A stretch of DNA of 64,000 nucleotides, taken from the NCBI GenBank assembly GCA_007859745.1, contig SMLU01000001.1, forward strand, positions 1,860,001-1,924,000. Direction: 5' to 3'. Shown piece by piece: positions 31,799 through 53,107 of this stretch (its first letter is position 1; each line of letters begins with the position of its first letter). Source of the DNA: Phycisphaerae bacterium RAS1. Lineage in GTDB: Bacteria > Planctomycetota > Phycisphaerae > UBA1845 > Fen-1342. The translations under genes were made by a program, and so were the position numbers. The notes below the pieces were generated by a model. That model did not search any database, was not told the origin of the DNA, and saw only the letters and a program-made list of their open reading frames with translations.

Positions 31799-31873
31799 GG
31801 TGCCACGGGCAGCTCGCTGCCCGTGCAGCACTGGCGGACAAGCCGCCAGTGGCACCCGCCACTGGCACCCGCC
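31799..31873. repeat. Short inverted repeats (GCCACGGGCAGC / GGCGGACAAGCCGCC)
   Basis: Adjacent hairpins CACGGGCAGCTCGCTGCCCGTG and CTGGCGGACAAGCCGCCAG are followed by repeated GTGGCACCCGCCACTGGC. The same second unit occurs inside nrdJ near 49865 and 51060. The 314-base gap 31588-31901 holds no gene. Confidence 0.7.
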
Positions 31874-32657: not shown

Positions 32658-32722
32658 ATCAGAGCCGCGCGCGTAAGCCAGCGGTATGCGGCGGTCCGCT
32701 CCTTGACGGTCGCGGCTCTGAT
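32658..32722. repeat. Family A palindromic element upstream of the EPS operon
   Basis: Perfect 12-base arms ATCAGAGCCGCG (32658-32669) and CGCGGCTCTGAT (32711-32722) enclose the CGCGTAAGCCAGCGG and CGGTCCGCTCCTTGACGG centre of the family. Confidence 0.8.
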
Positions 32723-47077: not shown

Positions 47078-47727
47078 GCTTCAAACCTCTCCGTGGACAT
47101 AGCGTACCGGCGCGATCGTGAAGCGCATAGCAAATTTTCGCGGTACGCCGCGTAAGCATGCTCATGCCGGGTGCCATGCCGACGGCCTTCGCGTCGGCAT
47201 GCGCCGGCGGTCCGGCGACGACGTAGGGTGCGTTCGGGCCGCGACGGTTGACACCAATCCGCCGCCGACCGCCAATCGCGCCCCGATCGCACCGTTCCCC
47301 GGTCGGGGCGATGGTGCGTTGGCGACAGGCCGTGTCGAACATCGACGCCGCGACGGCGCGACGGCGAGGCTACGCAGCTTTTCGCGTCGCCGTGATACCG
47401 AACCCATCGCCGTCAGCCGAAAACACTGCTCGCAGAGCAGTGGCACACGAATCGTCACTCGTTTCGGACGCTGTTCTGACAGTGCCACCCCGCCCCGGTT
47501 GCGTCAAATTGAGCTTTGGATGGTGACGTACCGCATTGATGTGATGTAACGATGATTCCCGGATGGTGCGTTCGCGGCGCGGCGGAGCGCATCGAGCACG
47601 CATGGCGCGGCGGCGCGACGGCGACGCATGCTACGCGGCCACCCAGCTCCGGGCGTTCGCAGCATTGACGCGCCGCTGCGGGCGGCGCAGAATCATGACC
47701 TCGAAACACTTCAAGTGAGGCGATGAC
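47078..47727. other. 650-base gap with repeat remnants
   Basis: No supported gene is seen. It contains a CATGCCGACGGCC/GCGTCGGCATG hairpin near 47174-47200, a CACTGCTCGCAGAGCAGTGG unit near 47426-47445 related to the units inside nrdJ, and scattered GCGACGGCG runs. Open frames here are short and lack start signals. Confidence 0.6.
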
Positions 47728-49441: not shown

Positions 49442-52400
49442 TCAGCACGCTCCCCACCCGCACGAATAGCACTTCCGACAGCCCTCCTGCAGCGCCAGCG
49501 GGCCGCTGCCGCATTCGGGGCATTTCAATTTGTAGTGCGGGGCGGCGTCGTGGGTGTGCTTGGCGGGGAGGGTGAAGACGCCGCTGGAGTCGTCGCGGAC
49601 GTCGAGAGCGAGCGCGTTTTCGAGCTGCTGGGCCTCGGCGATGAGCGCGTCGAGCGCGGCGGGGCTGGCGTCGGCGAGGTAATCGGCCGCGGGGTCGAAG
49701 AGGCGGACGCTGTCGAGCGTCAGGCGGTCGGCGGTGAGGATATCGGCGACAGCCGCGGCGGGCGTGTCGAGCAAGGCGGTGGCTTGGCCGTACGCCGCCA
49801 CTGCTGACACAGCAGTGGCACACGGATCGATCGCTGCTGAGACGGCGATGGCACAGGGGGCACTGGCGGGCAACCCGCCAGTGGCACCCAGGCTGCCAGT
49901 GGCACCCGACGAACGGCCGACTGGGACGTCGGCCGCTACGGGACGGCCGACTGGGACGTCGGCCGCTACGGGACGGCCGGCAGGGGCGCCGGCCGCTACC
50001 GTGTGTTTGCCGTTGCCGTTGCCGTTTCCATTGCCGTTCCCGTTTCCATTTCCGGTGCTTGAGAGCGGGGCGTCCAATCGCGATTGCACTGCTGGCACAG
50101 CAGTGGCACATGGTGATCGCACTGCTGAGACAGCAGTGGCACACGCCAGAACCGCTTCCTCACGGGCGCGGCTCGGAAGGTCGCGGCTCGGAAGGTCGCG
50201 GATCGGAAAAGCGGGTGCGGCGGGCGCCAAAGGCATGGCGTCGACGGTGTGATCGGCCGCCGTCGCCATGCGATCCGTCGGCGGATGCGGGTTCGTGTGC
50301 GGCGGGGCGGAGGGGTTGCTGAGTTCGGCGGGATCGACTTCGCCGAGCAGGATGGCGCGCAGACCGAAGCGCTCCTTGGCGCGCATGTACTTGCTGAGGG
50401 CGGCGGAGAGGCCGTCGGGCAGGGACATGATGCGGCCCAGGCGGGTCGGGATCTGGAGCGACGAGCCGATGCCTTCCCACTGCTTGATGAGATGTTTCAG
50501 GCTGCCGCCGGCGCGGAGCCAGAGGGAGCCGGCGCGGCACATGCCTTCGAGGTCGCCGTTGGCGACGTCGCCGCCCTTGCCGAGCTGGGCGAAGACCTCC
50601 AACTCGCGACCGCTGCGCGGGTCGACCGTCAGCTTGACGTGCATGTTGCCGAAGGGGGTCATCTGGCGGATGCGGATGCCAGAGACGATCTCGGGGAGGT
50701 CCATCGGCTCGATGTAGGGGGCGGTTCGGGGGGGGAGTGGAGCGGTCGCGGGGGCGCCCGGAAGGGTCTGCTTTTCGGCTGCACTGGCGGGCGAGCCGCC
50801 CGTGGCACCCGGCGGTGAAATCGCGGTCGCGGCGGCGACGGGCACTGCGGAGACAGCAGTAGCACACGTGCCGACAATTGGAGCGTCGCCGGCGGCTGCG
50901 CTCGCTTGCGCTTCGCGTTCTGACAGCGCAGCGCCGCTCGCGGGCTTCGTGCCGGAATTATGACCTGACCCGTTGCCGGCGGCCGGCACTGCTGACACAG
51001 CAGTGGCACACGGGGCCGGCGCGGCTGCGACAGCAGTGGCACACGCGACGGGGGCACTGGCGGACAAGCCGCCAGTGGCACCCGGCGCCCCGCGCCCCGC
51101 GCCCTGCGCCCCGTTTTCTGTTCCCTGTTCCCTGTTCCCTGTTCCCTCAGCGACTTTTCCCGTTCCCTCGTCCTTCTTCAGCGCCATCGGCTGGAAGCTG
51201 CGGCAGCCGTCGCGGTAGACCGTGACGCCCTTGCAGCGCAGGGCGTAGGCGAGCTTGTAGATTCTCTCGACGTCGTCGCGAACAGCGGCGTTGGGGAAGT
51301 TGATCGTCTTGCTGATCGACGAATCGCAGTGCCGCTGGAACGCCGCCTGCATCTGCATGTGCCAGTCGGGTGTGATGTCGTGGGCGCAGACGAAGACGTG
51401 GCGGATGTCGTCCGGAATCTCGGCGATGTCGTGCAGCGTGCCTTCGCGGGCGATGCGCTCGAGCAGGGCGTCGCTGAGAAATCCGCGCGCGGCGGCGACG
51501 GAGCGGAACGTGTCGTTCACCTCGACCAGCGGCTTTTCGCCCTGCTTCTGGCCGCGGAGAACGTTGCGGATGAAGGCCAGCGAGAACATCGGCTCGATGC
51601 CGCCGGAGCAATTCGCGATGATGCTGATGGTGCCGGTAGGCGCGACGGTGGTCACCGCGGAATTGCGCATCAGGCGGTTGTGCTTCAGGTGCCAGATGCT
51701 GCCCTTCCAGTTGGGGAAGCAACCGCGCGACTTGGCCAGCTCTTCGCTGTAGTTGTGGGCTTCGTCGTTGACGAACTTCATGAAGCGCTCGCCCCAGGCG
51801 ACGCCCTGGTCGCTGTTGTAGGCGACGTTCAGCTTGTACAGCGCGTCGGCGAAGCCCATGATCCCCAGGCCGATCTTGCGGTTGGCCTTGCAGATGCGGT
51901 CGATCTCTTCGAGCGGGTAGTTGTTGGCGTCGATCACGTTGTCGAGGAAACGCGTCGAGGCGTGCACCACCTCGCGCAGCCGGTCCCAATCGATGCTGGC
52001 CTCCGGCGTGCACGCCTTGCGGATGAAATTGCCGAGGTTCACGCTGCCGAGATTGCAGGCTTCGTAGGGCAGAAGCGGCTGCTCGCCGCAGGGGTTGGTG
52101 GCTTCGATGCGGCCGACGTGCGGCGTGGGGTTGTGTTCATTGATGCGGTCGATGAAGACGACGCCCGGCTCGCCGGTCGCCCAGGCGTTATCGACGATGA
52201 TGTTCCAGATTTCGCGCTTGGTGTAAACCTTGCCGCGCAGCTCGGCGGGCAGGTCGCCGGTAAGGCGCGGCGTGCCGTAATAGCGTTGCCCGGCGTCGGC
52301 GGGCGGCTCGACGCAGTCGATCTCGATCAGGCTCCGGATGTCATATTTCCAGATGTCGAGATCGCGCGGCATGACAAACGCCTTGCCGTTACGCGGGTTG

Positions 52401-53107
52401 CGGACGACGTGCGGTGCGTCGGCGTCGGAGATGTAGTCGTCCATCCACTGGTCGGTCACCTTGACCGAGATGTTGTAGTTCGTGAATTGCGAAAGGTCCT
52501 GCTTGGCGTGCAGAAACTTCAGGATGTCGGGGTGATGGATGTACATCATCCCCATGTTGGCGCCGCGGCGGAAGGCGCCCTGCTGGATGGCGTTGGTCGC
52601 CTCGCTGAAGGCCTTCCAGAAGGTGATCGGGCCGCTGGTGGTGCCGCCGCTGCTGGCGATGAAGTCGCCGGTGGGGCGCAGCTCGTCAAAGGCGAAACCG
52701 GTGCCGCCGCCGGCCTTCTGGATCAGGGCGGTGTGTTTGATCGAATCGAAGATCGCGCTGACGGAGTCGCGTACCGGCAGCACGAAGCAGGCGGACAGCA
52801 TGCCCATCTCGCGACCGGCATTCATGAGCGTCGGCGAGTTGGGCATGTAGTCGCCGCTGGTCATAAGGGCGTAGAAGCGATCTTCCCATTCCTGCCGTTC
52901 CGGCTCGGGCGCGCCGTAAGAGGATTCGACGGCAGCGATGGCCCTGGCGACGCGGCGAAAGAGGTCCGCCGGCACTTCGACGCATTCGCCGGCCTCGTTT
53001 TTCTTCAGGTAGCGGGCTTCGAGCACCTTGCGGGCGTTTTCGGTGAGCATCGGGATTTCGTCGATCGTGTTCATATTTTTGGGGGCGCGGCCACACGACG
53101 GTTCCAT
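49442..53107 (-). CDS. nrdJ: Adenosylcobalamin-dependent (class II) ribonucleotide reductase with repeat-derived inserts
   Basis: NrdJ makes deoxyribonucleotides using coenzyme B12, with or without oxygen. ATG 53107 has AAGGA 8 bases upstream. The 1221-residue product has the R1 barrel with NPCGEQPLLPYEACNLGS (338-355), including Cys340 and Glu342. Further motifs are GAFRRGANMGMMYIHHPD, NSAVTTVAPTGTIS and the C-terminal CPECGSG...CRKCYSCG zinc/redox tail (1196-1221). Two low-complexity inserts, about 646-797 and 931-1107, separate conserved segments. They are encoded by repeats also found between genes elsewhere. The enzyme core appears intact, so it is probably functional. Upstream NrdR-box-like sites suggest control by NrdR. 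Confidence 0.93.
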   Translation of the reverse strand: MEPSCGRAPKNMNTIDEIPMLTENARKVLEARYLKKNEAGECVEVPADLFRRVARAIAAVESSYGAPEPERQEWEDRFYALMTSGDYMPNSPTLMNAGREMGMLSACFVLPVRDSVSAIFDSIKHTALIQKAGGGTGFAFDELRPTGDFIASSGGTTSGPITFWKAFSEATNAIQQGAFRRGANMGMMYIHHPDILKFLHAKQDLSQFTNYNISVKVTDQWMDDYISDADAPHVVRNPRNGKAFVMPRDLDIWKYDIRSLIEIDCVEPPADAGQRYYGTPRLTGDLPAELRGKVYTKREIWNIIVDNAWATGEPGVVFIDRINEHNPTPHVGRIEATNPCGEQPLLPYEACNLGSVNLGNFIRKACTPEASIDWDRLREVVHASTRFLDNVIDANNYPLEEIDRICKANRKIGLGIMGFADALYKLNVAYNSDQGVAWGERFMKFVNDEAHNYSEELAKSRGCFPNWKGSIWHLKHNRLMRNSAVTTVAPTGTISIIANCSGGIEPMFSLAFIRNVLRGQKQGEKPLVEVNDTFRSVAAARGFLSDALLERIAREGTLHDIAEIPDDIRHVFVCAHDITPDWHMQMQAAFQRHCDSSISKTINFPNAAVRDDVERIYKLAYALRCKGVTVYRDGCRSFQPMALKKDEGTGKVAEGTGNREQGTENGAQGAGRGAPGATGGLSASAPVACATAVAAAPAPCATAVSAVPAAGNGSGHNSGTKPASGAALSEREAQASAAAGDAPIVGTCATAVSAVPVAAATAISPPGATGGSPASAAEKQTLPGAPATAPLPPRTAPYIEPMDLPEIVSGIRIRQMTPFGNMHVKLTVDPRSGRELEVFAQLGKGGDVANGDLEGMCRAGSLWLRAGGSLKHLIKQWEGIGSSLQIPTRLGRIMSLPDGLSAALSKYMRAKERFGLRAILLGEVDPAELSNPSAPPHTNPHPPTDRMATAADHTVDAMPLAPAAPAFPIRDLPSRDLPSRAREEAVLACATAVSAVRSPCATAVPAVQSRLDAPLSSTGNGNGNGNGNGNGNGKHTVAAGAPAGRPVAADVPVGRPVAADVPVGRSSGATGSLGATGGLPASAPCAIAVSAAIDPCATAVSAVAAYGQATALLDTPAAAVADILTADRLTLDSVRLFDPAADYLADASPAALDALIAEAQQLENALALDVRDDSSGVFTLPAKHTHDAAPHYKLKCPECGSGPLALQEGCRKCYSCGWGAC
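49789..50317. repeat. Repeat-derived insert 2 within nrdJ
   Basis: It encodes residues about 931-1107. It includes several GTGCCACTGCTGTGTCAG-type units (peptide CATAVSAV), a (Gly-Asn)n run near 50007-50050, three GGTCGCGGCTCGGAA copies (family A right arm, about 50160-50210) and two AGTCGGCCGTCCCGTAGC-like units. All remain in frame. Confidence 0.8.
50720..51172. repeat. Repeat-derived insert 1 within nrdJ
   Basis: It encodes residues about 646-797. It contains CATAVSAV-type units at about 50840-51040, a GGCGGACAAGCCGCCAG hairpin near 51060, and a TGTTCCC-type simple repeat at about 51119-51160. It lies between the catalytic barrel and the conserved C-terminal domain of the reductase. Confidence 0.8.

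Follow-up and report, generated by a model that had tools for sequence, protein, structure and literature searches.

How did the ribonucleotide reductase (RNR) gene of Phycisphaerae bacterium RAS1 come to carry, within its open frame, palindromic repeats of families whose copies lie mostly between genes? The gene, nrdJ, is found in a stretch of 64,000 nucleotides (contig SMLU01000001.1 of assembly GCA_007859745.1, positions 1,860,001 to 1,924,000), which we call the window and to which all unlabelled coordinates refer. We consider it probable that the two linkers of NrdJ are old disordered tethers that became a collecting place for repetitive extragenic palindromic (REP) elements of several families. 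A preliminary description of the locus, made from the letters alone, had noticed two repeat-bearing inserts; that the units are REPs with transposases of their own was absent from it.

NrdJ and Its Two Linkers

The nrdJ product scored 671.8 bits against NrdJ_Z (TIGR02504), above the curated cut-off of 399.95, and is thus a class II RNR. Pfam placed the RNR all-alpha domain at aa 21-102, the barrel from aa 105 and the TSCPD domain at aa 818-908; translation may actually start at codon 12, an in-frame ATG (MNTIDEIPML). Since nrdJ is the single match to PF02867 in a profile search of the whole 5.5-Mb genome, and NrdD (PF13597) had no match in that search, nrdJ is very likely essential, as judged from its being the sole RNR gene. 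The six cysteines of the C-terminal tail are invariant among 26 NrdJ sequences, and the catalytic core, the TSCPD domain and the tail all look intact. The earlier statement that the frame stays open between intact conserved blocks therefore stands, with a frame of 1,221 aa, the Pfam and TIGR02504 matches and the invariant tail cysteines behind it.

Both linkers are predicted to be disordered tethers. An AlphaFold run on aa 600-1221 with 25 relatives, a partial model with a mean predicted local distance difference test (pLDDT) score of 56.7, gave pLDDT below 50 across most of both linkers, mostly 75-95 in the TSCPD domain and 80-91 at the end of the tail.

Palindromic Units in the Linkers

The linkers hold 15 units of five families, which take up 388 of their 1,350 nt; the unit survey described below counts 13 in the gene. 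All 15 lie inside the two linkers, and none was found in the core, the TSCPD domain or the tail. Family F1 (GGTGCCACTGGCGG..CCGCCAGTGCC) is present three times, F2 (TGTGCCACTGCTG..CAGCAGTG) seven times including the two degenerate copies (4 and 5 mismatches), F3 (GCGCTCGCTTGCGCTTCGCGTTCTGA) once, F4 (TCCGAGCCGCG..AGCGG) once plus half units, and F6 (GTAGCGGCCGAC..GTCGGCCG) three times (Table 1). The F1, F2, F4 and F6 units have the orientation of the gene. Because F2 doublets spaced 33 nt apart occur in both linkers and the F6 units stand in tandem, duplication within nrdJ accounts for some of the copies better than separate insertions do.

Table 1. Features of nrdJ and related intergenic units in the window
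Feature	Position	Strand	Remarks
nrdJ, class II (B12-dependent) ribonucleotide reductase	49442..53107	-	open frame, 1,221 aa
Linker 1, aa 635-801, core to TSCPD	50705..51205	-	alignment with 61 relatives; mostly low pLDDT
TSCPD domain	50384..50656	-	without palindromic units; high pLDDT
Linker 2, aa 911-1193, TSCPD to cysteine tail	49529..50377	-	alignment with 61 relatives; mostly low pLDDT
C-terminal cysteine tail (CPECG..CRKC..CGWGAC)	49445..49528	-	conserved cysteines
GTTCCC text repeat, GNREQGTENG region	51118..51148	+
F1 REP unit	51053..51082	-	0 mismatches, equals family consensus; GATGGLSASA
F2 unit, degenerate	51020..51043	-	4 mismatches; CATAVAAA
F2 unit	50987..51010	-	exact; CATAVSAV
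F3 unit	50898..50923	+	exact, antisense to nrdJ; SEREAQAS; no cognate RAYT found
F2 unit	50843..50866	-	3 mismatches; CATAVSAV
F1 REP unit	50780..50809	-	GATGGSPASA
F4 REP unit	50152..50177	-	PSRAREEA; half units follow at 50179-50208
F2 unit, doublet member 1	50120..50143	-	CATAVSAV
F2 unit, doublet member 2	50087..50110	-	CATAVPAV
Gly-Asn run	50008..50055	-	simple repeat, ancestral linker feature, not REP
Three F6 REP units in tandem	49913..50002	-	30-nt period; VAADVPVG x2 and VAAGAPAG; GTAG tetranucleotide
F1 REP unit	49859..49888	-	GATGGLPASA
F2 unit, degenerate	49832..49855	-	5 mismatches; CAIAVSAA
F2 unit	49799..49822	-	exact; CATAVSAV
Intergenic F2 unit	47424..47447	-	sister type (CACTGCTC/GAGCAGTG)
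Intergenic F4 unit	32696..32721	-	related unit directly before
Intergenic F1 unit	31827..31856	-	second inverted hairpin alongside

REP Families Across the Window and the Genome

For the F2 pattern (up to three mismatches) the window contains 12 strand matches at seven places, six of them in nrdJ, compared with none in 100 shuffles; the F1 pattern has seven strand matches at four places (three in nrdJ) against a shuffle mean of 0.03. Genome-wide, F1 was found with up to two mismatches at 36 places, three of which are the nrdJ copies. The related units previously reported between genes at 31799, 32658 and 47426 are real and belong to F1 (31827), F4 (32696) and F2 (47424), and the "family A right arm" (DLPSRDLPSR) of that description is the F4 region.

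Unit counts quoted here come from a survey of 1.664 of the 5.498 Mb (about 30%; the window and 80 stretches) with ten families and 1,159 genes predicted with a simple method based on codon usage, not a standard program; family thresholds vary between surveys. This survey yielded 672 units, of which 578 were intergenic, 80 inside genes and 14 at gene edges. In a single order-2 Markov version of the same 1.664 Mb, no unit of any of the ten families occurred. By eye, the GTAG tetranucleotide is present in F6 and F11, and no GTAG/CGTC tag was seen in F1 or F2. An array with a period of about 70 nt starts from about 5358 in stretch L133; the sample contains 40 copies of GGCCCTGATGAATGGA.

F2 consists of two sister types that differ by a compensatory stem change, CACTGCTC/GAGCAGTG between genes and CACTGCTG/CAGCAGTG in nrdJ. 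The exact nrdJ type occurs in 13 of 60 further genomes from the same order (14 of 61 with RAS1 included). At seven of the 11 inspected loci outside RAS1 an inverted sister unit lies alongside, as in a REPIN (REP doublet forming hairpins), and ten of the 11 have no convincing coding frame through the unit; the remaining one (L302) has a frame on the other strand. The founding F2 unit of nrdJ may descend from a family that was formerly active in this genome, or may have been acquired by recombination, with duplication in the gene then making the doublets.

RAYT Genes Beside the Families

REPs of several families here have candidate transposases close by. A profile search of the genome returned 20 matches to Y1_Tnp, the domain of REP-associated tyrosine transposases (RAYTs). 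At twelve of these the same tested family lies within 700 bp on either side, compared with 175 of 20,000 random anchors (0.9%; anchors of 250 bp, piece L172 excluded from them). The sister type of F2 surrounds six matches, and F1, F4, F6, F7, F8 and F11 surround one each, so that RAYT genes flanked by the cognate family exist for four of the nrdJ families (F1, F2, F4 and F6). Four of the F2-flanked genes are clustered at L172:14417-19485 (C1:2.615-2.619 Mb), three in the same direction and one reversed; this cluster is a recent local amplification. With the REP_Tyr_transpos model (NF047646, cut-off 80 bits), the F2 RAYT (101.3) and the F6 RAYT (90.0) both pass.

Linkers in Related NrdJ Proteins

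We aligned 61 of 80 NrdJ loci, nearly all titled planctomycete or Phycisphaerae (L037 is titled Alphaproteobacteria). Six fragments (L017, L036, L053, L057, L068, L071) and 13 distant loci (L072-L075, L077-L085) were excluded, and L016 and L050 were kept though cut or misaligned at the tail. Both linkers are present in all 61 relatives, with 32-166 aa for linker 1 and 42-305 aa for linker 2, and the idea that insertions created them was rejected on this ground. Those of RAS1 measure 167 and 283 aa, compared with medians of 76.5 and 168.5 aa in the 16 relatives with a core identity of at least 74.5% and of 41 and 86 aa in the remaining 45. Judged from this alignment, the linkers are ancestral, lengthened in RAS1 and not newly made there. 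The preliminary description had placed inserts of about 150 and 177 extra residues at about 646-797 and 931-1107. Their borders hold approximately, as the main low-occupancy runs of the RAS1 protein against its relatives are aa 656-784 and 943-1098 (with further runs at 1110-1144 and 1152-1177), but the excess over the medians of the 16 closest relatives is only about 90 and 115 aa.

The repeats within the linkers are species-specific. In RAS1, 306 of the 501 nt of linker 1 lie in 15-mers that recur elsewhere in the genome sample (1,264 kb), compared with 15 of 501 nt for G011, a genome of the same family with a smaller sample (393 kb); that sample included the G011 nrdJ itself, which raises sharing of the core and not of linker 1. 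The variable linker parts contain no invariant column among the 26 NrdJ sequences. An ancient insert shared by all relatives, the outcome that the preliminary description had named as fatal to its reading, is not what was observed: the linkers are shared and the repeats are not. Gly-Asn runs are common in the linkers of relatives, and the Gly-Asn run of RAS1, a simple repeat and not a palindrome, has to be removed from the repeat-derived inserts to which it had been assigned.

In relative L018, just over half of linker 1 matches other sites of the L018 genome (53 matches, self included), and its repeats belong mostly to families different from those in the RAS1 gene. Hairpins show a weak excess in the linkers of relatives, with nine in 31.5 kb compared with 11 in 138.6 kb of core and TSCPD.

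Units and Their Reading Frame in Other Genes

nrdJ is not the only host. In the unit survey 34 of the 1,159 called genes hold at least one unit; nrdJ is the most loaded (13 units, five families), followed by polA (seven units, two families). By a k-mer measure over 1.264 Mb, repeats make up 8.4% of the spacers and 0.22% of the coding DNA; interior repeat runs occur in 52 of 868 genes. The Pfam assignments put the polA units between its two exonuclease domains, where matches to 17 of 18 relatives break, and the leuS units before the anticodon domain. The 43-aa leuS stretch with F4 units has no counterpart in 14 of 15 informative relatives; at this site the fifteenth (L263) has a shorter, unrelated stretch. 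L265 and L273 do not cover the site, and L268/L275 are one gene. Further hosts named by Pfam are an SRP54/FtsY-like GTPase, inositol monophosphatase, an Eco57I-type methylase, carB and argS; a fused 2-oxoacid oxidoreductase holds a text repeat. A frame of 1,251 aa at L342:4404-8159, without a Pfam match at E 1e-5, contains six F8 units, all read as PLGAAGS.

Each family consensus has five or six possible readings without a stop, and the same phase recurs within a family and orientation. This holds for F4 in six of six genes (PSRDREGA type) and for F7 in five of five (GETPVP) and four of five (GGTGVSPV), with weaker agreement in F3, F8, F9 and F11 (2/3 or 3/4). Taken together, the groups show the same phase in 42 of 59 gene pairs, a level reached in seven of 100,000 simulations. 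The frames in use are mostly rich in Gly, Ala, Ser, Thr, Pro and Val, and the unused ones often in Arg, Cys, Trp or Leu. The simplest reading of this frame rule is selection on the encoded peptide after insertion, the alternative being a phase bias of the insertion target.

Whole RAYT Genes in Frame Inside Essential Enzymes

Entire RAYT-like domains were also encountered within the frames of housekeeping enzymes. The valS frame (1,563 aa; L306:1734-6425, in C4 at about 135.7-140.4 kb) includes one with Y1_Tnp at aa 845-901, and has 12 F4 units in frame, with F4 on both sides of the RAYT. The ileS frame (1,419 aa; L308:2474-6733) and the gcvP frame (1,225 aa; L307:4412-8089) each contain an in-frame RAYT, flanked on both sides by F7 and F11, respectively; that in the purH frame (L122:16551-19139) has none of the ten tested families nearby. 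Scores against NF047646 were 85.3 (gcvP), 66.4 (ileS), 66.5 (purH) and 24.7 (valS). Compared with solved homologues, the host sequence resumes close to where it breaks off: 472->474 in Thermus ValRS (1gax), 212->219 in IleRS (8c8v) and 754->768 in GcvP (4lgl). The part of the RAS1 genome that was examined showed no further copy of valS, ileS or gcvP, and Pfam/NCBIfam scans of the three host frames (E <=0.001; no motif search was made) returned no intein family.

IleS was recognised in 11 of 14 stretches from relatives (not in L319, L329 and L331). Two of them, G011 (L318) and G008 (L320), which belong to other genera, have a RAYT at the same IleS site as RAS1, with different repeat peptides. 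The three embedded RAYTs are 60-70% identical. For the RAS1 and G008 pair the ratio of nonsynonymous to synonymous substitution rates (dN/dS) is 0.11, with synonymous sites nearly saturated; the other two pairs are saturated.

Origin of the Units in nrdJ

The course of events that we favour would begin with REPs of several families mobilised in trans by resident RAYTs (TnpA-REP, Y1 HuH transposases) and inserted into the linker DNA of nrdJ. Copies that kept the frame and coded for a small flexible peptide would have been retained, and some of these would then have been duplicated within the gene. NrdJ should stay functional because the core, the TSCPD domain and the redox-active cysteine tail are untouched and the tether tolerates extra length. 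Transposition of the nrdJ units by RAYTs, their neutrality and the expression of the full-length protein are presumed, as are at least five founding events, one for each family.

Several observations weigh against this course. F3, like F9 and F10, surrounds none of the 20 RAYT matches, and eight of the 20 are not enclosed by any tested family. The units beside the F2 RAYTs are of the sister type and not of the type in nrdJ; for the latter the 5.5-Mb genome has four strict sites, every one within nrdJ. The earlier claim that the inserts are built from intergenic repeats therefore fails for F2 in the strict sense, as the intergenic copies are the sister type. The F4 RAYT, which is the one in valS, stays far below the NF047646 cut-off, and the F1 RAYT contains an F1 unit and a frame change and therefore looks broken. 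Only three of the 61 relatives (L006, L018 and L067) have recognisable REP-type or text-repeat peptides in their linkers, by a motif list drawn up after the linkers had been read, so the phenomenon is recurrent and not general. None of the 15-mers in the L006 linkers has three or more copies in the L006 genome sample, and repeats therefore do not explain the length of these linkers in that sample. The k-mer measure gives nrdJ two repeat runs compared with six in the leading gene, and several genes exceed it. Finally, an empty site would not be recognisable in nrdJ itself, given how variable the linkers are.

A less probable but substantial contender is that there were few founding insertions and that slippage and recombination between and within the linkers multiplied one or two captured units. 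The doublets in both linkers, the three tandem F6 copies, the absence of nrdJ-type F2 elsewhere in the genome and the shared gene orientation of F1, F2, F4 and F6 all fit such an expansion. It is harder to reconcile with five unrelated families, of which F1, F3, F4 and F6 are dispersed elsewhere, and with an nrdJ F1 unit that is identical to the family consensus. Most likely, insertion and expansion within the gene have both acted on the linkers. The proposal that short palindromes repeatedly entered nrdJ at tolerant linkers thus keeps its core, given five families and resident RAYTs for four of them, and loses those copies that are better seen as duplicates made in place.

It seems improbable that the units were recruited, with REP-coded peptides tuning the reach of the tail, assembly or stability of NrdJ. 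nrdJ and polA, which carry more units than any other gene in the sample, both serve DNA synthesis, REPs in DNA polymerase I and repair genes have led to speculation about such a role in PMC3733652, and the frame rule shows that the peptide is under selection or is biased. Yet the other hosts are unrelated (argS, carB, the ftsY-like gene, inositol monophosphatase), the linkers are conserved neither in sequence nor in length, and disorder is predicted. Misassembly in a repeat-rich stretch is highly improbable: repeats can mislead assembly, but nrdJ sits in a 3.42-Mb contig of a genome in seven contigs with 99.18% completeness, its frame is open across all units, and such units recur in the other sampled hosts. 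Least probable of all is an ancient conserved extra domain. Such a domain would agree with linkers in 61 of 61 aligned relatives; it was rejected because the variable parts lack invariant columns and the repeats are species-specific.

Relation to Known Systems and Meaning

Intragenic REPs are already known, also in DNA polymerase I and tRNA synthetases. PMC3733652 describes intragenic GTAG/CGTC REPs, some in frame in known genes including these, proposes linkers as tolerant sites, records REPs in Planctomycetes and leaves their presence in replication and repair genes as a puzzle; the text consulted does not mention the word 'ribonucleotide'. The units described here resemble these REPs in being short palindromes, mostly intergenic and sometimes genic in frame, in a genome with RAYTs. 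They differ in that most families seem, by eye, to be without a GTAG tag, and the larger REP-coded regions reported there span 43-82 aa, whereas nrdJ has two clusters of five families in one RNR gene.

Rickettsia palindromic elements (RPE), the other precedent (PMC10969869), are likewise palindromic and in frame in many unrelated genes. They are about 150 bp long and found in Rickettsia, in contrast to units of 17-30 bp from several families, with RAYTs, in a free 5.5-Mb genome of another phylum; unit size, sequences and phylum, compared with the description of RPE, set our units apart from that group. According to PMC6006769, REPs within tnpA-REP genes also lie in frame in coding sequence, but the host there is the transposase and here housekeeping genes; unexpectedly long proteins were discarded in that work as gene fusions or annotation errors. 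The enterobacterial RU elements (PMC2759123) are also small mobile units with reading frames inside genes, but they resemble miniature inverted-repeat transposable elements and, with 103-168 bp, are unlike the units of 17-30 nt found here. Searches of the open-licence literature turned up neither a report of REPs within an RNR gene nor one of RAYTs embedded in aminoacyl-tRNA synthetases. What is new is the mosaic of several REP families in one essential gene, together with in-frame transposase genes for which that literature yielded no study.

REPs are named for being extragenic, and here a single genome combines RAYTs of its own, copies scattered over it and dozens that lie in frame within housekeeping genes. 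Because this full chain and the frame rule occur in one genome, it is possible to tell a bias of insertion from selection acting on the encoded peptide. We also put forward, tentatively and as somewhat less than probable, that the REP/RAYT system is in part protein-invading: REPs (in nrdJ, polA, leuS, argS and carB) and complete RAYTs, mostly with flanking REPs (in ileS, valS, gcvP and purH), would enter essential genes in frame at domain borders and be read as part of the host protein, so that loss would be hard and purifying selection would keep the transposase sequence. If true, REP/RAYT elements would have an intein-like refuge without splicing, and the RAYTs in aminoacyl-tRNA synthetases raise the question of whether being carried within an essential protein can let a transposase gene persist.

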